DNA of 64,000 nucleotides from Paenibacillus sp. JNUCC32 (lineage in GTDB: Bacteria > Bacillota > Bacilli > Paenibacillales > Paenibacillaceae): NCBI RefSeq assembly GCF_014863545.1, contig NZ_CP062260.1, positions 4,597,001 to 4,661,000 of the forward strand. The letters run 5' to 3'. This document shows positions 13,077-49,690 of this stretch, piece after piece (the stretch's first letter is position 1; every line of letters begins with the position of its first letter). The position numbers and the translations under genes were made by a program. The notes under the pieces are model-generated. The model was given only the letters and a program-made list of their open reading frames with translations, was not told the DNA's origin and did no database searches.

Positions 13077-13116
13077 ACAACCCCGGTTTCTCTTCTGGAG
13101 ATGCCGGGGTTTTTTG
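13077..13116 (+). terminator. Terminator-like hairpin in the CGTase leader (possible attenuator)
   Basis: CCCCGG (13081-13086) pairs with CCGGGG (13104-13109), extended by flanking ACAA/TTGT, and is followed by six T residues. No gene lies between the promoter and this site, so it would stop CGTase transcripts early unless relieved. I see no named riboswitch fold or obvious leader peptide. Confidence 0.65.
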
Positions 13117-13211
13117 TTGCCCTATCTTTGGTACAGGAGGTGATTCCCCGCAGCTTCGGTTTGCTCATTGAACCAACCCCCATTCAACAACTGCTACATA
13201 GGAGGAATACG

Positions 13212-15353
13212 ATGAAAAAATTCTACAAACTGACAACCGCCCTTGCCCTTAGCTTGTCCCTGGCGCTGAGCTTGCTCGGCCCAGCCCATGCAGCTCCGGA
13301 TACCTCAGTATCCAACAAGCAAAATTTCAGCACGGATGTCATTTATCAAATCTTTACGGACCGTTTCTCCGACGGCAATCCTGCCAACAACCCGACCGGC
13401 CCGGCCTTTGACGGTACCTGCACCAACCTGCGGCTGTACTGCGGCGGCGACTGGCAAGGGATCATCAACAAAATCAACGACGGCTACCTGACCAGCATGG
13501 GCGTTACCGCCATCTGGATCTCCCAGCCGGTCGAGAACATCTACAGCGTCATCAACTATTCCGGAGTGAACAACACCGCATACCATGGTTATTGGGCCAG
13601 AGACTTCAAGAAAACGAACCCGGCGTACGGCACGATCGCCGATTTCCAGAATCTCATCGCTGCCGCGCATGCCAAGAACATCAAAGTCATCATCGACTTC
13701 GCGCCGAACCACACGTCTCCCGCTTCCTCGGACCAGCCGTCGTTCGCGGAGAACGGCAAGCTGTACAACAACGGCACCCTCCTCGGCGGATACACCGGCG
13801 ATACGCAGAATTTATTCCATCATAACGGGGGAACCGATTTCTCGACGACAGAGAACGGGATTTACAAAAACCTGTACGATCTTGCCGATCTGAACCACAA
13901 CAACAGCACGGTGGATACCTACCTGAAGGATGCCATTAAAATGTGGCTTGATCTGGGCATTGACGGCATTCGGATGGATGCGGTAAAACATATGCCGTTC
14001 GGCTGGCAGAAGAGCTTCATGGCCACCGTCAACAATTACAAGCCGGTCTTCACCTTCGGCGAATGGTTCCTCGGGGTGAACGAAGTGAGTGCCGAGAACC
14101 ATAAGTTCGCCAACGAATCCGGCATGAGCCTGCTGGATTTCCGTTTCGCGCAGAAGGTTCGCCAGGTATTCAGGGACAACACCGACAATATGTACGGACT
14201 GAAGTCCATGCTGGAGGGCTCTGCTGCCGATTACCTCCAGGTGGAGGATCAGGTCACGTTCATCGATAACCATGACATGGAACGATTCCACAATAACAGC
14301 GCCAACCGCCGGAAGCTGGAGCAAGCGCTCGCCTTCACGCTCACTTCCCGCGGCGTGCCAGCCATCTATTATGGAACCGAGCAATACATGTCCGGCGGGA
14401 ACGATCCCGACAACCGGGCTCGAATTCCTTCTTTCTCTACAACGACTACGGCTTATCAGGTAATTAAAAAGCTGGCGCCATTGCGCAAATCCAACCCGGC
14501 CATCGCTTACGGGACGACGCAGGAGCGCTGGATCAACAACGACGTGTTGATCTACGAGCGCAAGTTCGGCAACAACGTGGCCGTCATCGCCGTCAACCGC
14601 AACGTGAACACGCCGGCTAACATTACGGGATTGGTAACCTCACTGCCGGCCGGCAGCTACACCGACGTGCTGGGCGGCCTCCTGAACGGTAACAATCTGA
14701 CCGTCGGCTCCGGCGGGTCCGCCTCCAACTTCACGCTGGCAGCGGGCGGTACGGCCGTATGGCAGTACACCACGGCCGTGACTACGCCGACCATCGGGCA
14801 CGTAGGACCGATGATGGCCAAACCGGGCGCAACCGTCACCATTGACGGCCGCGGTTTCGGAGCAACCAAAGGCACGGTATACTTTGGCACGACGGCAGTT
14901 ACCGGCGCTAACATTACGGCTTGGGAAGACACGCAGATCAAGGTGAAAATCCCTGCCGTTGCCGGAGGCGTATATAACATCAAAATCGCCAACAGCGCCG
15001 GAACCTCAAGCAATGTGCATGACAACTTCGAAGTGCTGAGCGGGGATCAAGTCAGCGTGCGCTTTGTGGTGAACAACGCTACCACCGCGCTCGGACAGAA
15101 CGTGTACCTGGCAGGCAGCGTAAGCGAGCTCGGCAACTGGGACCCGGCCAAAGCCATCGGTCCGTTGTACAACCAGGTCATCTACCAATACCCAACCTGG
15201 TACTATGACGTCAGCGTTCCCGCCGGCAAAACCATCGAATTCAAATTCCTGAAAAAACAGGGCTCGACGGTAACATGGGAAGGCGGTTCGAACCATACGT
15301 TTACCGCTCCAACGAGCGGAACGGCCACCATTAACGTGAACTGGCAGCCGTAA
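13212..15353 (+). CDS. cgt: Cyclomaltodextrin glucanotransferase (CGTase), secreted
   Basis: The ATG at 13212 follows AGGAGG by six bases and gives 713 residues, the usual precursor length. A 27-residue signal peptide ends PAHA, and the mature enzyme starts [12 protein letters not shown]. In mature numbering the GH13 catalytic residues are present: Asp229 in GIRMDAVKH, Glu257 in GEWF, and Asp328 in FIDNHD. Domains run A/B (TIM barrel), C, D (TIG-like, [11 protein letters not shown]) and E (CBM20 starch-binding, ending INVNWQP). It cyclises starch outside the cell into cyclodextrins, most likely beta. Sequence is from memory very close to the B. circulans 251 enzyme. The MdxEFG-like importer at 18133-21696 would take up the products. 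Confidence 0.97.
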
Positions 15354-15755: not shown

Positions 15756-15889
15756 GCACGACGCAGCGGAGAGGACGAATCGATTCCGGAAAAACGATAG
15801 TGGTCGCCTTTGCCCCCGATTTTCTACCGAAAAATCATAATCCAAAGAAAATTGGGGGCAACAGCGATTGGAGGAACGATACGTACTCG
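15756..15889 (-). repeat. Dispersed hairpin repeat, copy A
   Basis: This is one of four related elements (others at 32862-33066, 36573-36707, 48297-48429). Read on the minus strand it begins CGAGTACGTATCGTTCC, then AATCGCTGTTG. Next comes a 14-bp hairpin (15847-15860 with 15811-15824, one G-U pair), then AAAGGCGACC and ATTCGTCCTCTCCGCTGCG. It sits in the 3' untranslated region of the chemoreceptor transcript. Confidence 0.8.
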
Positions 15890-15962
15890 CAGCGTCTCGC
15901 TTCAACGGAGCTTGCGGAGTGCTGATAGCCCACATCATTTTCACGCAGCAATCGAAAACCAT

Positions 15963-17999
15963 TTACGTCCTAAACATCACCAAAGACTTACGCAAGCCCT
16001 CCGACAGCTCCTCCAATCGCGACGACAGGCCGACCAGCTTCTCGCTCACCTTGAACTGCTCGGACGACATCGAAGCAACCTCCTCCGTGGCGGCGCTGGT
16101 TTCCTGGACGATCGAGCTCGCCTCCGAGATGGAGTCGGTCAGCGCCAGCTGGGAATCAATCAGAACTTCCACCGCATGCGTAGACTCGCTGATCTCGGTT
16201 AAGAGCGCATCCATCTCGTGACGCACGTTATCAAAGACGCCCTGTGCTTCCTGCACCGAATGCAGCTGCTCGTCAAAGAGCGGCGATGCCGACGTCAAAG
16301 CATCCACGGAGCCCTGCACCTCGCGCCGAATGTCCAGGATCATCGCGCCTACGGTCTGGATCGACTCCTTGGAACGATCCGCGAGGCTCCGCACTTCATT
16401 GGCAACCACCATGAAGCCGCTGCCTGCCGCTCCGGCACGGGCCGCTTCAATCGTCGCATTAATGGATAGCACATTGGTCTGATGCGTGATCTCCGACATC
16501 AGCTCCAATATTTTGTGGATCGATGCGGTATTATCCTTCAGCTTCTCCGCATTCTGTACGATTGCCCGGTTCACCTGGTTAATCCGCGTCGATTTCTCCA
16601 CCAGGCTGTCCATATGCTGCGCGCCTTCCCCCGTTACCCGGAGCACGCGATCCGCCGCGGCCGCGATCACCTGATTCGTATCGGACACCTTGCTCATCCG
16701 GACGCCAATGTTCTCGGCCAGCTGGTTCTCGCGTTCGGCCTCCATGGCCAGGCTTCCGCTTCCCTGCGCAATCTGTTCCATGGCGGCCGCGATCTCTCCG
16801 GCCGTAAGCGACGTTCCTCTTGAGGCTTCGGCCAATTCCTCGGCCGTAACCAGCACTTCCTTCGCCGACGCATTCGTCTGATCGACCAAAGCCGAGATTT
16901 GCCCCATCATCCGGTTGAAGCTCTGACCCAGACGGCCAATCTCATCGGCACGGCGGAATTCCGTCCGCACCCTTAAGTTCCCCTGCTCTCCCTCTTCCAT
17001 CAGGCTGCACATCTGGTTCAGCGGTCGGCCGACGGTACGCATCATATAGTAGCCGATCAGAACAGCAACCAGAACAGCTGCCACAATGACCGCAAGCGTA
17101 ACGGCAAGCAATTTGTCAGTGGCCTGCACGAAATCGCTAACGGGAGCAAAGCCGACCATATGCCATGGGGCCGTCTTCAAAGGCGTATATACCACCATCT
17201 GCTCGTCGGCGGTATAGTAGATCCCCCCTTCCTCGGCGTCTGAAGGAACCGTAATGGCGGACGGCTGCATCAGCTGAGCCGGGTCCATGTCGTGCACGAT
17301 CCGGTTATCTTCGGCCACGATCCGCATCTGTCCGTTATTCCCTATTTTTAGATTCGCCAGCACCTCGCCGACCGCCTCGTCCTTGACATCCATCAGCAGT
17401 ACGTACTGCGCATTCGGATTTTTCAGGTTTTTCAGCAATCTTCCCATCGTCATGGTGGCGGTATTCTCGTTCTCCATAAAACCCTTGACCTCTGTTGGAA
17501 ACCATACCGGTTCGCCATCAGCCTGAATAATCCGGTCGATCTTCGCCTTCACCCCGTCCGAAGAAGACATGCCCGAATAGCCCGTGGAGTTATAGGAGCT
17601 CTGAGCCTGAAGATTGGGCGCGACCAGACGCATGCCCTGCAGACGTTTATCCGAAGATGCCATCCCGTTCAGCTTCTCACGGATCCGGTTCTCGGCCTGG
17701 GTTTTGTCCCGAATGCCGATATCCGCCGTGCTGACCGTCACCAGATCTTCGCGAAGCACCGTGTCCAGCGCCCACTGGCGGGAGGCGGCTTCATACTGGG
17801 CCAGCAGAAAATCCAGCTTGTCCGCAGCCTGCATCATCTGCCCCGAGGTCGCTTCGGATACCTGATCCATTACCGTGTCCTTGGAGATGGAATACGACAA
17901 TAACCCCAGCGCCGAAGATAACAGCACGATCGTTGTAAAAAAGATAACAAACAGCTTCATGCCGACCGCCTTGAATTGAAAACGCTTTGTCATGTTCAT
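15963..17999 (-). CDS. Methyl-accepting chemotaxis protein
   Basis: I use the ATG at 17999 (678 residues), which has AGGGGG nine bases upstream. Membrane segments at about residues 15-37 and 297-320 enclose an extracellular Cache-like sensor domain of roughly 260 residues. A HAMP linker and a long coiled-coil signalling domain follow, with the hairpin tip region ITHQTNVLSINATIEAARAG typical of class 44-type receptors. It sits between the CGTase gene and the maltodextrin-type transporter, which suggests chemotaxis toward alpha-glucan products. The ligand is not shown by sequence. Its own terminator lies at 15673-15712. Confidence 0.94.
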   Translation of the reverse strand: MNMTKRFQFKAVGMKLFVIFFTTIVLLSSALGLLSYSISKDTVMDQVSEATSGQMMQAADKLDFLLAQYEAASRQWALDTVLREDLVTVSTADIGIRDKTQAENRIREKLNGMASSDKRLQGMRLVAPNLQAQSSYNSTGYSGMSSSDGVKAKIDRIIQADGEPVWFPTEVKGFMENENTATMTMGRLLKNLKNPNAQYVLLMDVKDEAVGEVLANLKIGNNGQMRIVAEDNRIVHDMDPAQLMQPSAITVPSDAEEGGIYYTADEQMVVYTPLKTAPWHMVGFAPVSDFVQATDKLLAVTLAVIVAAVLVAVLIGYYMMRTVGRPLNQMCSLMEEGEQGNLRVRTEFRRADEIGRLGQSFNRMMGQISALVDQTNASAKEVLVTAEELAEASRGTSLTAGEIAAAMEQIAQGSGSLAMEAERENQLAENIGVRMSKVSDTNQVIAAAADRVLRVTGEGAQHMDSLVEKSTRINQVNRAIVQNAEKLKDNTASIHKILELMSEITHQTNVLSINATIEAARAGAAGSGFMVVANEVRSLADRSKESIQTVGAMILDIRREVQGSVDALTSASPLFDEQLHSVQEAQGVFDNVRHEMDALLTEISESTHAVEVLIDSQLALTDSISEASSIVQETSAATEEVASMSSEQFKVSEKLVGLSSRLEELSEGLRKSLVMFRT

Positions 18000-18031
18000 G
18001 TTATGTACCCCCTGATTGCAAACATACATGC

Positions 18032-18066
18032 AAAAAGACACAGCAAGGCAATTACCGGCTGTGTCT
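18032..18066 (-). terminator. Terminator of the maltodextrin-type transporter operon
   Basis: AGACACAGC (18036-18044) pairs perfectly with GCTGTGTCT (18058-18066). On the minus strand five U residues follow. It separates the transporter operon from the chemoreceptor gene, whose start codon is about 30 bp further on. Confidence 0.87.
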
Positions 18067-32816: not shown

Positions 32817-32861
32817 GTGTTCCTCCCCTTAGACTAGAGATTGTCTGCCTGTCATCACTAC

Positions 32862-33066
32862 GAATGCGGATTATTTTTCCGATCTCTGTTGCCCCCAGAT
32901 TTCTGTTACATAAGATTTAATGGTTGAAATCCGGGGGCAGCATATGCTTTCGATGCTAGCTTTCCGATGGAAATCTTTCAGGAGACCGCTATCGCTTCTC
33001 CAAAACAATTCCGCCTTCTCCGTTGTAGAAATTGAATTTCTCTAGATCTTTTATGAATGCGGATTA
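32862..33066 (+). repeat. Dispersed hairpin repeat, copy B, inside the purine operon
   Basis: It lies between purB and purC. CGATCTCTGTTG leads into a hairpin TGCCCCCAGATTTC/GAAATCCGGGGGCA (32890-32903, 32926-32939; 13 of 14 paired). After about 37 extra bases comes GGAGACCGCTATCGCTTCTC, matching the other copies. The 12-bp direct repeat GAATGCGGATTA flanks it (32862-32873, 33055-33066), as an insertion would leave. The operon message reads its complement. Confidence 0.7.
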
Positions 33067-36144: not shown

Positions 36145-36253
36145 ATACAAGGATTACGAACGCTGCCGCCTGCGTCAAGCGGAAGAGTCTTGCGCATCCG
36201 CCGCCTAAGAAGCAAACATGAAGCCAAGCCCCGTCGTTGCCGCACCGTTTGTA

Positions 36254-36331
36254 TTCCTTCGTAGTCCGAAAATTTACGGTTTTCGGGTAGAGACTTCCGG
36301 GCCATATCCCCGGCTTTATACGAGACATATT
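36254..36331 (-). ncRNA. Purine riboswitch, guanine type
   Basis: The minus strand carries the purine aptamer landmarks in order: TCGTATAAAGCCGGGGATAT, GGCCCGGAAGTCTCTACC, CGAAAACCGTAAATTTTCGG, and ACTACGA. The loop-loop hairpins P2 (CCGGG/CCCGG) and P3 (CCGAAAA/TTTTCGG) are complete. The specificity base in GACTACG is C, which pairs with guanine or hypoxanthine; the adenine class has U. It resembles the switch of the Bacillus subtilis pur operon. Confidence 0.93.
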
Positions 36332-36380
36332 CAATTTCATCAATCATGCTTCATAAGTTATTTTGAACCTCAACATCCTC

Positions 36381-36457: not shown

Positions 36458-36572
36458 GGCAAGTGAGCATGCAGCAGCAAAAACTTCCTGGAGACTGCGG
36501 GCTTTAAAAGGCGTGGCAAATGTCGGACATGAATAGCTGTAAGCAGTACATGTTGAGCAATTGGCAGCGCTG

Positions 36573-36707
36573 CGCTGACGCATCGTGATTCCGATCGCTG
36601 TTAAACACGGGAAACTGGATTGAACTATAATGGAGGTTTCCCGTGTTTAAAGGCGAACGCTGGCGCTTCTCCATCCACGATTCGTCCGCTCCGCTGGAGT
36701 TTCTTCA
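36573..36707 (+). repeat. Dispersed hairpin repeat, copy D, with a different stem
   Basis: CGCTGACGCATCGTG and CCGATCGCTGTT lead into a perfect 15-bp hairpin TTAAACACGGGAAAC/GTTTCCCGTGTTTAA (36601-36615, 36636-36650). AAAGGCGAACGCTGGCGCTT and ATTCGTCCGCTCCGCTG follow. The flanks match copies A and C, but the stem shares no sequence with their C-rich stems. The rest of 36458-36925 shows no gene I can support. Confidence 0.78.
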
Positions 36708-36925: not shown

Positions 36926-37537
36926 ATGGCTATCTATTTCGTAAGGCATGGTCAGGACGAAGAAGGATATCGCGGAGGATGGAGCCAGCGCGGGCTCACC
37001 GATGAAGGGATCAGGCAAGCGGAGAAGCTGGGGCAGTACTTGAATGAACACAAGCATGAATTTAATATCCAGCGGATCATTTGCAGCGATCTGCAAAGGT
37101 CTTGTCAGACAGCCGCAATCATTGCTGATAAACTTAGCCTGCCGCTGATCGGCTCCGAGGAATGGCGGGAGACCAACAACGGTCTGCTCGCTGGAATGCC
37201 CCACGCATTAGCGGAAGAGAAATTCCCCGGGATGTATTTTTCCAGCTTACGGATGGACGAGAAATACCCTGGAGGTGAGAGCCCGCTAGAAAATTTCCAG
37301 CGGATCAAGGATACCTTCACCAAACTATGCCAGGATCAGGAATCGGCGGATCATCATGAGAACGTACTGGTTGTCACACACGGGGGAGTGATCAACATCA
37401 TTTATCATCTAATTAAAGATACGGCTTGGACCAATAAGAATCCGTTCTTCCCGGCGGCGAACACCGGGCTGCACCGAATCGAGTATCGCGACGGGCGTTG
37501 GGAGCTTACCATCGAGAATGCCACCCCTCACTTATAA
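36926..37537 (+). CDS. Histidine phosphatase family protein (phosphoglycerate mutase-like)
   Basis: This 203-residue protein has the catalytic FVRHGQD at residues 5-11 (phospho-His), SDLQRSCQTA as the second arginine segment, an acid in the EEWRETNNG region, and VVTHGGV with the second catalytic His near residue 152. AAGGAGG lies six bases before the ATG. Members dephosphorylate sugar phosphates or other small esters; the substrate is unknown. It is one of the few plus-strand genes and stands alone. Confidence 0.9.
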   Translation: MAIYFVRHGQDEEGYRGGWSQRGLTDEGIRQAEKLGQYLNEHKHEFNIQRIICSDLQRSCQTAAIIADKLSLPLIGSEEWRETNNGLLAGMPHALAEEKFPGMYFSSLRMDEKYPGGESPLENFQRIKDTFTKLCQDQESADHHENVLVVTHGGVINIIYHLIKDTAWTNKNPFFPAANTGLHRIEYRDGRWELTIENATPHL

Positions 37538-37847: not shown

Positions 37848-37898
37848 AGGACCTCCTTTGACCAAATAATCACGAACACCCAACATGAACTGCGCTAT

Positions 37899-37960
37899 AA
37901 GAAAAAAATCGATCGACGTATCTCATAAGAAGATAGACCGCATTTGACGATTTTTTTCTT
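37899..37960. other. AT-rich two-way hairpin upstream of the L7/L12-like gene
   Basis: AAGAAAAAAATCG (37899-37911) pairs with CGATTTTTTTCTT (37948-37960). Inside, TATCT/AGATA (37919-37923, 37931-37935) makes a second short stem. It may be a terminator in both directions or a protein site for the gene starting at 37847. Confidence 0.5.
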
Positions 37961-38005
37961 GCGAGATCAGGAGGGTGAGTCGACTGAAGTGTATACGTTC
38001 CTATC

Positions 38006-45355: not shown

Positions 45356-47284
45356 TTACTGAATGATTTTGTTGAGACGCTCCAGATAACGCCAGCGAGT
45401 AATAAAGAAATACATGATCTGGATGCTCAGGAAGAAGATGAAGATCTTCAAACTATGCCCTACGATCGAGAAGTCTACCAGCTGCTGAAGCGCAACAAAG
45501 GCAACGCCGCTATGGATGAGTGCGATTAACATCGGCAAAAAGAACATAATGACAAGCTGCTTGGTAATGATGGTGCCAAGCTCTTTTTTGCTGAGTCCCA
45601 CCTTGGCAATCATGCGATACTGCTGTTCGTCCCGGGCAAGATCCGCGTACAGCCGGAAATATACAAAGCTTGCCGCGAAGGTAAAGAACACGATGCCGAC
45701 CAGGCCGCTAACCATAAGCAGAATGCCGTTCTGCTGCTGGGCGCTTTTCCAATCCAAGTACAATGACTTGAGATAATAGCTGTAGTCTTCCGGCTCTTTA
45801 AGACGTTCCTGAATCGATCTGGACACATCCCCCGTATTCTTCCAATCCTGCACGTAAAACGTATGGAATGCCGCATAACCGAATTCCTGATCCTCTTGTG
45901 CCTGGAGCACATCCTTGTACAGGCGGTCGGATACGACCAGCGTATCGCCGTAGGTCGCGGGCACCGCAATGAACGTTTCGGCTTTGAGCACCTTGACGAT
46001 TTCCGATGTTTTCCCGTTTATCACGTCGAATTGATCATTACCAGGACCATCGATTCGGTAGCTGTTCTTCTCCGTGACGGTCCCAGGGGTCAGGATGCCT
46101 TCCAGGTCGCCCAATGTTTCTGACGGGTAACCCATCGACTGAATAAGACTGTTATATTCGCTGAGCTTAATCAGATTGATCCCGTTATCCGAAAATATCG
46201 GAGTAACCTCCGCCTCCTTGTACTGAAATCCGCCCTTCTTGAGCTCCTCCCTGATCATATCAAGATGACGATTCCCTTTATCAGCGTTCTCATCATTCAT
46301 AGTGTACGTATAGGCATAAGGATTCTCCATGGCCGACAGGCCGGGATCCCCGATTGCAAGCGTGGTGCCGATCCCGGTAAAGGCGGATGCCGAGATGACC
46401 GATACGAGGAAGAACATCACCGCATTGTCTTTGATTCTGTACAGCAGCTCCGAGATCGTCAGCAGGTTGGTTCGGCGAAAGAAGAACCGCTCTTTCTTCT
46501 GCAGATACCGCATAAAAAACACGCTGAACTGAGTGAAGAGAAAATACGTGCCGATAATGACGAATATAACGCCGCCAAGCAGCAGGAACAGATTGAAGAT
46601 TTGGAGAATGGCAAAAACCATGACCATGCCGTAACCGGTTCCGATCAGCAGGACAGCCAGCACGGCCAGCCAAGGCGATGCTTTCGGCTGCGGCTTCGGG
46701 CTTTCCTCTGCTTTCACCAGGGCGAGCAGCGTGCCCTTCCGCAGCATGAACGAGGAGAACAACGCAATCAGCAGGAACAATACGGCATAAGCCGCAGCCG
46801 TAACGATCAGCGATTCGAGCGGAAAATAAAACGGAAGTCCCTTATCCACGGCCAGCAGCTTGGCGCTGATTAGCAGGATCAGCTTGGAGAACAGCAATCC
46901 CGTTCCGATGCCGACTACGATCGCTGCAGCGCCAATCAGGATATTCTCGATGAACAACATCCGGTTCAATTGCTTGCGGGACATGCCGAGGATCAGCAGA
47001 ATGCCGAACTCCTTTTTCCGAACCTTGATGAAAGCCCCCACCGAATACAGCAGAAAGAAAAATGAAAAAACGAACACGATGTACTGGGATACCGTCATGC
47101 CCATCGTACCCAGCATGGACATGGTACCGCTGGAGGAGACCAGGCCGTCCTTCAGCTGTGGGTGAAACGACAGCAGCCCGTAGGTAAAGAAAATCATGAC
47201 GGAGAAGGCACTGCTCAGGAAATGGGCAATATACGTGCGCTTGCTGCGCAGGACATTGTTAACGGCGAACTGGCGAAAATTCAT
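45356..47284 (-). CDS. BceB-type FtsX-like ABC transporter permease
   Basis: I take the ATG at 47284 (642 residues, [19 protein letters not shown]) with GGGAGG eight bases upstream; this is the standard BceB start and length. About ten membrane helices are seen, with one large extracellular domain of some 200 residues after the seventh helix, which senses peptide antibiotics in BceB. It overlaps the ATPase gene by 26 bases. With BceA it should free lipid II-cycle intermediates from peptides such as bacitracin. The exact drug cannot be told. Confidence 0.92.
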   Translation of the reverse strand: MNFRQFAVNNVLRSKRTYIAHFLSSAFSVMIFFTYGLLSFHPQLKDGLVSSSGTMSMLGTMGMTVSQYIVFVFSFFFLLYSVGAFIKVRKKEFGILLILGMSRKQLNRMLFIENILIGAAAIVVGIGTGLLFSKLILLISAKLLAVDKGLPFYFPLESLIVTAAAYAVLFLLIALFSSFMLRKGTLLALVKAEESPKPQPKASPWLAVLAVLLIGTGYGMVMVFAILQIFNLFLLLGGVIFVIIGTYFLFTQFSVFFMRYLQKKERFFFRRTNLLTISELLYRIKDNAVMFFLVSVISASAFTGIGTTLAIGDPGLSAMENPYAYTYTMNDENADKGNRHLDMIREELKKGGFQYKEAEVTPIFSDNGINLIKLSEYNSLIQSMGYPSETLGDLEGILTPGTVTEKNSYRIDGPGNDQFDVINGKTSEIVKVLKAETFIAVPATYGDTLVVSDRLYKDVLQAQEDQEFGYAAFHTFYVQDWKNTGDVSRSIQERLKEPEDYSYYLKSLYLDWKSAQQQNGILLMVSGLVGIVFFTFAASFVYFRLYADLARDEQQYRMIAKVGLSKKELGTIITKQLVIMFFLPMLIALIHSGVAFVALQQLVDFSIVGHSLKIFIFFLSIQIMYFFITRWRYLERLNKIIQ

Positions 47285-48029
47285 GTCCCGAACCTCCCAG
47301 CAGCGATAACACGTTGATGATTTTTTGATAAAAGGCCGATTGGCTGTCGCCGTACGTGATTTCGTTGTACAACTGCCCGTCCTTGATAAACACCACCCGA
47401 TTGCAGTAGCTTGCTGCCACCGGGTCATGGGTGACCAGCAGCATGGTCACTTGGTCTTCCTTGTTTCTCCGGTCCATCATTTCCATGACGTCGCGGGCCG
47501 ACTTGGAGTCCAGGTTGCCTGTCGGCTCATCGGCCAGAACCAGCTTCGGTACGTGGATCATGGCCCGCGCTATCGCCGTCCGCTGCGCCTGTCCCCCCGA
47601 TATTTCATAAGTCCGCTTGTCCAGAATCGATGTGATGCCCAGTTTATCGGCCAAAATGCCGACCCGGCGGTTCATCTCATCCAGATCCACGCCGTCCAGC
47701 GCCAGGGGGAGCAGGATATTCTCCTTCACCGTCAGCGTATTCAGCAGGTTGAAGGACTGAAAGACAAACCCCAGCTCACGCCGGCGGAACATGGCGAGTT
47801 TATCCTGGGATAATCGGAACGGATCCTCCCCGCCGATGGTGATCTCCCCGGACGTAGGTCGGTCGATGGTGGAGATCATGTTGAGCAGCGTCGTTTTTCC
47901 GCTGCCGGAGGGGCCCATGATGCCGACGAATTCCCCTTGGTTGATGCTCAGATTGATATTGGAAAGCGCCTCGTGGGACACCGCGGCCTTATAAACTTTG
48001 CCCAGATTGCGCACGTTAAGTATTTCCAT
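47259..48029 (-). CDS. BceA-type ABC transporter ATPase
   Basis: The ATG at 48029 (256 residues, [14 protein letters not shown]) has GAGG eleven bases upstream. Walker A is [15 protein letters not shown], the signature is [15 protein letters not shown] (Ala where Gln is usual in SGGQQQR), and Walker B is [13 protein letters not shown]. It forms a complex with the permease encoded at 45356-47284. A BceR-like site 95 bp upstream suggests induction by the BceRS pair encoded at 48710-50386. Confidence 0.93.
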
Positions 48030-48123
48030 CTTGTTGTAAACCTCACTTTCGTTATTTCGTTCCTGTAAGGTTAGTGTATAGCATCGGGCGGGCCATCTCC
48101 TATCGATCACTCTTTCGCCAACC

Positions 48124-48137: not shown

Positions 48138-48159
48138 GATTCATGCGTAGACCGGCTCA

Positions 48160-48297
48160 GGGTACGTCACGGTCGCCATTCTAAAGGCGCTTCGGGTACG
48201 TAACGGTTGCGATTCCAGAGGTGCTCCGTGTACGTCACTGTTGCGATTCTTAAGGCTGCTTCGAGTACGTCACTGTTTGCGATTCTAAAGGCGCTTC
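48160..48297 (+). repeat. Four tandem 34-35 bp repeats
   Basis: Units at 48160-48193, 48194-48227, 48228-48262 and 48263-48297 share GTACGT(C/A)AC, GCGATTC and AAGGCGCTTC. A fifth unit begins at 48298 and runs straight into repeat copy C. Each unit resembles that element with its hairpin left out. There are no spacers, so it is not a CRISPR array. Confidence 0.85.
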
Positions 48298-48429
48298 GAG
48301 TACGTAACGTTCCTACGATCGCTGTTGCCCCCAAATTTTCTGAACGATTACACCGAGGTGAAAATTCGGGTGCAAAGGCGACCGCTTCGCTTCTTCGGAA
48401 TCGTTTCGTCCTCTTTCGCTGATGCGTGC
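48297..48429 (+). repeat. Dispersed hairpin repeat, copy C
   Basis: CGAGTACGTAACGTTCCTAC and GATCGCTGTTG lead into a hairpin TGCCCCCAAATTTTC/GAAAATTCGGGTGCA (48326-48340, 48360-48374; 13 of 15 paired). AAAGGCGACCGCTTCGC, TTCTTCGGAATCGTTTCGTC and CTCTTTCGCTGATGCGTGC follow. It is the clearest reference copy and lies between the bceS terminator and the tandem array. Confidence 0.85.
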
Positions 48430-48709: not shown

Positions 48710-49690
48710 TCAGAAAATCAGCCTCACGGTCGTTCCTCTTCCCGGCTCGGATTCCAGCTCGATTTGGTGGTTCATTTTATGGACCACTTCTTTGACGAGA
48801 TACAAGCCCATGCCGGTGGATTCCTTCAGCTTGCGGCCGTTTTCCCCGGTATAGAACGGGTCGAACACCCGCTTCAAGTCGGATGGCGGTATGCCCATTC
48901 CCCGGTCCGTGATCTCCAGCACCACATGGCGGTGGTCCTCCGTCCGGCGGGCCTGGATCGTCACCTTAAGCCCGGTTCCGGCAGAATATTTAATGGCGTT
49001 GGACAGCAGCTGCAGCATGATGAACCGAAGCCATTTGGCATCCGTCTGAACGGTGAGATCCGAATCGATCCGGACCTCCGGATACACATGACTGTGAATA
49101 AAATAACGCTTGTTCTCGTGCACCGCCTCGACTGCCGCCTGATGAAGCTTCACGGGCTCCACGCTGAAATCCTGCTCGAAGGTTTCGAGCCTGGACATGT
49201 AGAGCACCATCTCCAGCCCGCGCCGAATCCGGTCGGATTCCTCGGATAAACTCTTGAAGGCGTCGTTATCATCCTCCTGCGTGATCATCTCAATGACGGA
49301 CAGCGGCGTTTTCATCTGATGCACCCACTGATTCATGAAGATCATATGCTCTTTCCGCCGGCGCTCCCACTCTTCCATGACCGTGCGGTATTGACGGTAC
49401 TGCTCTTCCATAAGCTCGCTAAGGGCCGTAGGCAGCGGGGCCGACTCGTTATGCTTGATCGATTCCTCCAACGACCTGATGGGCTGCGACAGCCGCTCAT
49501 AGAAATCCCGGTGCGTGAAATACCGGAATGCCAAGTACCCGCCAAGAATGGTCAGACCGAGGAAAACGGCATAAGCCGCTGTCACCGGATGATCATAGCC
49601 GTCATACCAGAATACGAGCAGCACCACGAACAAGGCCGCGGTTACAAACAGAATGAGGGGCAAATGCTCACGCCAAAACAGCTTCTTCAT
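48710..49690 (-). CDS. BceS-type intramembrane-sensing histidine kinase
   Basis: The 326 residues have two membrane helices near the N-terminus (about 10-28 and 38-56) with almost no outside loop, the hallmark of intramembrane-sensing kinases. The H box is NQWVHQMKTPLSV with His124, followed by an ATPase domain (LSNAIKYSAG, DRGMGIP, STGMGLYLVK). Such kinases detect peptide antibiotics through their BceAB transporter. It starts four bases after the regulator gene. Confidence 0.93.
   Translation of the reverse strand: MKKLFWREHLPLILFVTAALFVVLLVFWYDGYDHPVTAAYAVFLGLTILGGYLAFRYFTHRDFYERLSQPIRSLEESIKHNESAPLPTALSELMEEQYRQYRTVMEEWERRRKEHMIFMNQWVHQMKTPLSVIEMITQEDDNDAFKSLSEESDRIRRGLEMVLYMSRLETFEQDFSVEPVKLHQAAVEAVHENKRYFIHSHVYPEVRIDSDLTVQTDAKWLRFIMLQLLSNAIKYSAGTGLKVTIQARRTEDHRHVVLEITDRGMGIPPSDLKRVFDPFYTGENGRKLKESTGMGLYLVKEVVHKMNHQIELESEPGRGTTVRLIF

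Follow-up and report, generated by a model that had tools for sequence, protein, structure and literature searches.

The window, a stretch of 64,000 nucleotides from Paenibacillus sp. JNUCC32, contains four intergenic copies of a dispersed repeat, and the copy under study here, copy D, lies ahead of purE (Table 1). A purine riboswitch (Rfam RF00167, 81.1 bits; 36242-36343) also precedes purE and was the only Rfam 15 match in the searched window and loci. Copy D is located upstream of both this riboswitch and the best promoter-like match ahead of purE, and may therefore be outside the pur message, the promoter-like match itself being no better than chance. All four copies proposed in a sequence-only reading of this DNA are present, and the stem described for copy D exists as stated, its first arm TTAAACACGGGAAAC pairing perfectly with the second across a 20-nt loop. 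The flanks said to be common to the four copies are generally shared, but copy B is without the right flank AAAGGCGA because an extra arm of ~40 nt is inserted in its core. By eye, the region adjoining copy C (48150-48316) consists of degenerate tandem units of ~40 nt that resemble the end of the element and look as if terminal pieces of it were duplicated.

Table 1. Location of the repeat copies, their structural parts and associated features. Positions are those of the window unless an array or locus is named.
Feature	Position	Strand	Remarks
Copy D (element under study)	36566..36697	(-), RNA strand	Covariance model R1 match, 122.1 bits; neighbours: divergent phosphatase-like gene (36926-37537 +) on one side, purE on the other (NCBIfam; phosphatase below its cut-offs)
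Copy D, outer stem P1, arm 1	36577..36589	(-)	Partner 36673-36686; included in pairing counts
Copy D, outer stem P1, arm 2	36673..36686	(-)	Partner 36577-36589
Copy D, core stem P2, arm 1	36593..36598	(-)	Near-invariant in alignments A1 and A4
Copy D, core stem P2, arm 2	36653..36658	(-)	Near-invariant in A1 and A4
Copy D, variable hairpin P3, arm 1 (15 nt)	36601..36615	(-)	Perfect complement of 36636-36650
Copy D, variable hairpin P3, arm 2	36636..36650	(-)	Perfect complement of 36601-36615
Copy D, mini-hairpin P2b	36659..36666	(-)	RNA strand reads GC[GCCA]GC
Copy B, extra-arm variant (~40 nt in core)	32854..33026	(-)	purB-purC intergenic; model match 63.0 bits, 173 nt; site alignment
Copy C	48290..48422	(-)	Model match 117.9 bits; flanking genes: sensor histidine kinase (48710-49690 -) and ABC ATPase (47259-48110 -)
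Copy A	15763..15896	(+)	Model match 122.0 bits; between converging alpha-amylase-like (13101-15353 +) and chemotaxis receptor (15963-18041 -) genes
Tandem arrays, own genome	G000:C1:4861505-4862034, 5728752-5729405, 3790199-3790534		Two or three copies each
8-bp duplication, exact	L263		
8-bp duplication, one mismatch	L256, L260, L267		
8-bp duplication, none			8 of 12 boundaries
Core-less short MITE forms	L265 706-833, L266 187-320, L268 1933-2060		128-134 bp, same ends

The sequence-only reading had recognised no named family, and this holds against Rfam 15 and the open-access literature. No Rfam 15 family matched the element, either across the whole window at the gathering threshold or in seven loci at E values up to 1, and the open-access literature yielded no description of such a Paenibacillus element. 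The name Paenibacillus has zero occurrences in the available text of structured-RNA surveys of 26 and 50 genomes (PMC8632094, PMC11109978), of a stem-loop family survey (PMC2267715) and, by word search, of a MITE review (PMC10969869).

The repeat had been described as a single hairpin, and this hairpin is present, but pairing extends far beyond it, into outer stems and a mini-hairpin. The element is ~135-140 bp in length and its consensus on the RNA strand is 5'-CARCGGAG...P1...GGAGAA-GC-GNNA-GC-GGUCGC-CUUU-[P3]-AACA-GCGAUC-GGA...P1...GCGNAGYG-3'. In the predicted fold, P0 and P1 are the outer stems and enclose a junction that contains P2b, a tiny GNNA hairpin; the core stem P2 is near-invariant and accompanied by a conserved internal loop, and the variable hairpin P3 bears an apical stem in some copies. 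Some compensatory change in P2 is found among the purB-purC copies. In the extra-arm variant an additional hairpin arm is present in the core, and its motif (one mismatch allowed) occurs in 14 of the 16 same-genus genomes searched, including JNUCC32, where copy B is its single occurrence. The loop and the GGAGAA segment may in addition form a pseudoknot.

Changes in stem letters had been said to be compensated, and in alignment A4, which holds 69 of 83 copies, both sides have changed in 27 of 33 pairs, a pattern also seen at purB-purC. A4 has 386 double-changed cells where shuffles have 103, and its covariation score is 0.522, shuffles giving 0.198 (sd 0.007) and slid-partner controls no more than 0.172; the shuffle nulls of these covariation tests ignore relatedness among copies. 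In A4 91.1% of cells are paired, a figure raised by the omission of 14 copies, namely four array copies, three near-duplicate or IS-borne copies (L093, L098, L129) and seven divergent or odd ones (L107, L130, L147, L151, L152, L155, L159). The outermost pairs of the element covary as well, and the outer pair of P2b is AU in place of GC in seven of the 69 sequences (columns 35-43). Several unpaired columns of the junction and internal loop reach 1.8-2.0 bits, others being lower, and paired P3 columns average 0.85 bits. A measure of further pair types did not beat shuffles, 463 of 500 being as high on one alignment and 237 of 500 at purB-purC; the structure used for alignment A3 was drawn from one sequence of A3 itself. 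The earlier proposal that conserved flanks around compensated stems reflect selection on structure, and not chance, is supported.

Most evidence makes the complement of the strand first read the RNA strand, as judged from wobbles, folding energy and orientation bias. In the orientation of the sequence-only reading, A.C outnumber G.T mismatches in the variable hairpin by 19:2 in A1 and 36:1 in A2, where a single column provides 23 of the 36; this strand count used the first 66 of 106 rows, those omitted being mainly reverse-strand echoes, and a few places are represented twice (L132/L134, L130/L135). A.C mismatches as read become G.U wobbles on the complementary strand, on which the 33 pairs of A4 contain 157 G.U against 47 A.C cells (98:45 without two wobble-rich columns), with 17 columns favouring G.U and seven favouring A.C, and the purB-purC copies contain 21 against nine. 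The bias occurs alike in copies placed sense (76:24) and antisense (30:13) to their neighbours. For 70 of 83 copies it is also the complementary strand that has the more stable fold (mean -53.1 vs -47.7 kcal/mol), and neighbouring windows are unbiased (158:170). As counter-evidence, copy D alone folds slightly better as first read (-50.2 vs -46.0), and one fixed core pair that is U.G as read in all 25 A1 copies becomes C x A on the complementary strand.

The four copies of the window belong to a larger population, the JNUCC32 genome having 37 full-length matches in total. The exact flank pattern ATCGCTGTT-N30-60-AAAGGCGA occurs 19 times in this genome and a shorter pattern 31 times, with no matches to a reversed control; three of the 31 (L022, L023, L037) were set aside as coding-like sequences that had no matching stem by eye and look like chance, L044 and L045 were removed from A1, and the 31st match had no locus. 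Covariance model R1, built from alignment A1 of 25 own-genome copies, gave 47 matches in JNUCC32 at E values up to 0.1, of which 37 span the full length and exceed 52 bits; the remainder are ten weaker matches, six of them echoes of listed copies on the reverse strand. This genome also has three tandem arrays, their periods being ~200-263 bp; the units are near-identical within an array and the stem sequence is specific to each. A CRISPR-like or attC nature was rejected, since these arrays are tandem duplications with near-identical units, and REP palindromes were rejected because the REP unit is 20-40 bp in length.

Further copies in related genomes had been named beforehand as a check, and matches were obtained in all 24 other same-genus genomes searched, with 5 to 75 model matches each (E up to 0.001; echoes possibly counted). 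At the same threshold, matches were also obtained for 4 of the 15 genomes that represent other families in the order. In a sample of the family, 126 of 148 genomes and 14 of 19 genera have matches (own genome included), and in a sample of the phylum 5 of 299 genomes, own included, have matches, all five being members of the own family. A stringent pattern returned 110 stretches from named genomes, and all 80 among the matches listed are from Paenibacillus. With one copy as the query, two Paenibacillus plasmids matched and phage records gave no match. As found so far, the element is distributed through the Paenibacillaceae and a few related families. Separately, 15 IMG/VR viral contigs (L380-L394) match the shorter core pattern.

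To follow the element at a fixed site, the purB-purC gap was surveyed in 20 genomes besides JNUCC32. The model matched in ten of them, always in one orientation relative to the genes. The extra-arm form is present here in JNUCC32 and G006 and a degenerate form in G002 (by eye); the gap is without the element in seven genomes, where it measures 15-98 nt, and in G029, with 191 nt, there is no match. Among the ten matched copies, 17 of 40 pairs have changed on both sides, giving 40 cells as against 14.2 in shuffles. At other sites, seven of ten copies fetched from G004 have an own-genome counterpart with both flanks matching. In 11 orthologous pairs, selected by presence of the element on both sides, the element has an identity of 0.89 compared with 0.70 and 0.66 in the 60-nt flanks, and exceeds the flank mean in all 11 (p 0.001); these are 11 of 15 pairs, four with IS1182-borne copies having been omitted and L059 being counted twice. 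Their 15-bp hairpins comprise 165 positions, of which 148 have not changed; pairing is kept by 11 changes (four of them double), and six involve a non-pair. Antisense-placed copies are conserved too (L059/L247). Given this conservation of orthologous elements and hairpins, we read the pattern as probable purifying selection on the element at fixed sites.

We analysed the placement of the copies in two samples, of 83 copies and of 109 copies from named genomes, that may have species in common; the second counts each place once and takes in no copy lying less than 300 bases from a locus end. Genes called by our own simple script are overlapped by none of the 83 and none of the 109, and a coding repeat was rejected on this ground. 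In the first sample 40 copies are sense to both neighbours, 18 antisense, nine convergent and four divergent, with 12 having an uncalled neighbour; the corresponding figures in the second are 45, 25, 20, 8 and 11. Sense placements exceed antisense by 45 to 21 in the second sample once arrays and IS1182-like copies are removed (p 0.004), and the own genome alone has no orientation bias (11 vs 10, array copies included). For sense copies the median distance is 119 nt from the upstream gene and 124 nt to the following one (second sample, 97 and 115). The flanking genes are diverse and have no common pathway (names outside the window being assigned mostly by eye). A riboswitch was rejected, given these diverse downstream genes and mixed placements, as was an intrinsic terminator, since the conserved 3' end GCGNAGYG has no T run after it.

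These placements bear on the possibility that the element is a dedicated regulatory RNA module, whose junction would bind a specific protein or small molecule and so control the host transcript, or which would be released as a small RNA, forming a transposon-built regulon. The conserved unpaired bases of the junction and internal loop fit such a module, as do the carriage of the element by most genomes of the family sample and its persistence at purB-purC, where the own copy and two altered forms (by eye) add to the matches in half of the fetched genomes. However, the neighbours have no pathway in common, convergent (20 of 109) and antisense (25 of 109) placements are frequent, and of 40 sense copies only two are separated from the following gene by a terminator. 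We consider this explanation unlikely.

In some lineages the element is associated with transposons. Homology among dispersed own-genome copies mostly stops no more than a few tens of nucleotides from the outer stem (among the 70 of 275 pairs listed), and column conservation falls there too. When the two flanks of a copy were compared for terminal inverted repeats, their inverted similarity was above the 95th percentile set by mismatched flanks for 4 of 23 copies from JNUCC32 and for 11 of 32 from relatives. In G012, G018 and other genomes, copies lie inside an insertion sequence, with its left end on one side and its transposase gene on the other; we assign it to the IS1182 family on the basis of one partial protein (L108), which scores 195.8 against an NCBIfam cut-off of 270 bits. 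The MITE of G014 and G020 is ~215 bp long (242-257 bp with the extra arm) and has a copy as its interior, and its inverted ends, GGCTCAAYA...ATTAGTNCTTGACA, bound many copies on both sides; a short pattern of the MITE end has 19 and 53 exact matches in this pair of genomes as opposed to one each for a control. Duplications of 8 bp with at most one mismatch are seen by eye at 4 of the 12 MITE boundaries listed, all of MITE-borne copies in these two genomes, and three of the 12 MITE copies listed have lost the whole core and hairpin; the latter forms look as if deleted between short repeats. No transposase that could serve as an autonomous partner for the GGCTCAA ends was recognised by eye among frames of more than 120 codons in 17 loci retrieved with these ends, although draft contigs may hide one. 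The IS1182-family and MITE associations indicate that the same putative RNA core is carried by different transposons. Two copies of another subtype (L229, L235) have at their flanks, as judged by eye, an inverted repeat of another sequence, GGCTTC..TTGAAATCGTGTTA, which may mark a third transposon vehicle.

Such mobility could be all there is to the repeat. Template switching occurs between the arms of quasi-palindromes, and a purely selfish foldback MITE might by this route keep its arms complementary during replication with no host role. The MITE ends and duplications in G014 and G020, the core-less deletion forms, carriage within the IS1182-family element, the local tandem arrays and the many kinds of flanking genes are all as a selfish repeat would have them. 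It nevertheless leaves unexplained why unpaired junction bases are conserved, why at orthologous sites the element retains 89% identity against 66-70% in the flanks, and why G.U is favoured over A.C in sense and antisense copies alike, and we doubt that it is the whole explanation. It is also very improbable, in our estimation, that the element is a single-stranded DNA hairpin recognised by a transposase or recombinase in the manner of IS200/IS605 ends or attC sites. A conserved fold with an asymmetric strand and dispersed copies with fairly sharp ends would suit it, but the mobile forms either show double-strand inverted ends together with 8-bp duplications or are carried by the IS1182-family IS, and selection for mobility does not require conservation in place at orthologous sites.

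The sequence-only reading had left the choice between a structured RNA and a small mobile hairpin, and there is support for both, since the element is conserved in place and also rides in an IS1182-family IS and a MITE. We give roughly an even chance to the interpretation that it is a transposon-spread repeat retained as a structured RNA embedded in mRNA, which would work in the manner of ERIC, NEMIS and bcr repeats, for which co-transcription and effects on stability or RNase-dependent processing are reported (PMC2229807, PMC3446304, PMC3049150). This fits best because a selfish hairpin leaves the unpaired core, the strand-specific wobbles and the conservation in place unexplained, and the mixed neighbours are unlike those of a riboswitch. 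On this interpretation, the repeats would be copies of one structured RNA element of ~135 nt, spread at least partly as the cargo or interior of transposons (an IS1182-family IS and a MITE with inverted ends). By analogy with ERIC, NEMIS and some bcr repeats, copies inside transcripts may act as modules that set the processing or stability of the flanking cistrons, with the conserved junction perhaps bound by a protein or RNase.

The available text on each of these repeats and on those of pneumococcus offers points of likeness and of difference. The interspersed repeats bcr1-bcr18 of the Bacillus cereus group are intergenic, with bcr1, bcr2 and bcr3 being MITE-like; about half of the copies are expressed, in UTRs, within operons or as ORF-free units, genes co-transcribed with bcr3 had longer half-lives, and bcr10 and bcr18 are reported to have conserved secondary structures (PMC3446304). 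The Paenibacillus element is likewise intergenic with some MITE-like copies, a likeness drawn from descriptions and not from sequence comparison, but belongs to another genus, and the available text on bcr does not mention compensatory change at fixed sites (PMC3446304). ERIC (IRU, RU-1), an enterobacterial intergenic repeat of 127 bp, is co-transcribed with its neighbours and has an orientation-dependent effect on the stability of the upstream transcript (PMC2229807). As far as the available description goes, it differs in host group, and the stems of the Paenibacillus element, unlike ERIC, turn over with compensation around conserved unpaired bases. The Correia/NEMIS repeats of Neisseria have forms of ~107 and 155 bp that differ by an internal sequence of 50 bp, and their RNA stem-loop is proposed to be a substrate of RNase III (PMC2229807). 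Judged against that account, the 215-bp and 242-257-bp MITE forms are reminiscent of the two NEMIS sizes, but in place of long stem loops the Paenibacillus element has a junction with a mini-hairpin, and its internal insert is itself a hairpin arm. In pneumococcus, BOX, RUP and SPRITE are small MITE-like repeats with extensive secondary structure and co-transcription; BOX, unlike the element here, is modular, and the words covariation and compensatory are absent from the main text available (PMC3049150).

A further reading, which we put forward as a tentative possibility, is that these copies represent a new structured-RNA class, a module that is built on a three-way junction, has a conserved recognition core and is present in most Paenibacillaceae. 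Different transposons would have copied it into many transcripts per genome and selection would hold it site by site as the stems drift, forming a regulon or RNA-processing network rebuilt by transposition and served by a dedicated putative partner. The family is large and RNA-like, has strong comparative support and is absent from Rfam 15, and intergenic copies of it are common in a much-studied group of soil and plant-associated bacteria. Because the element is found in different transposons and is conserved at purB-purC, it may offer a testable case of mobile repeats becoming functional RNA parts of operons, and the covariance model lets annotators find its loci. A second dispersed repeat of ~110 bp was observed in the window at 37895-38005, with more own-genome copies at C1:1335170, 4255499, 6479468 and 6721008 and many, some of them in tandem, in G010, G014 and G005.
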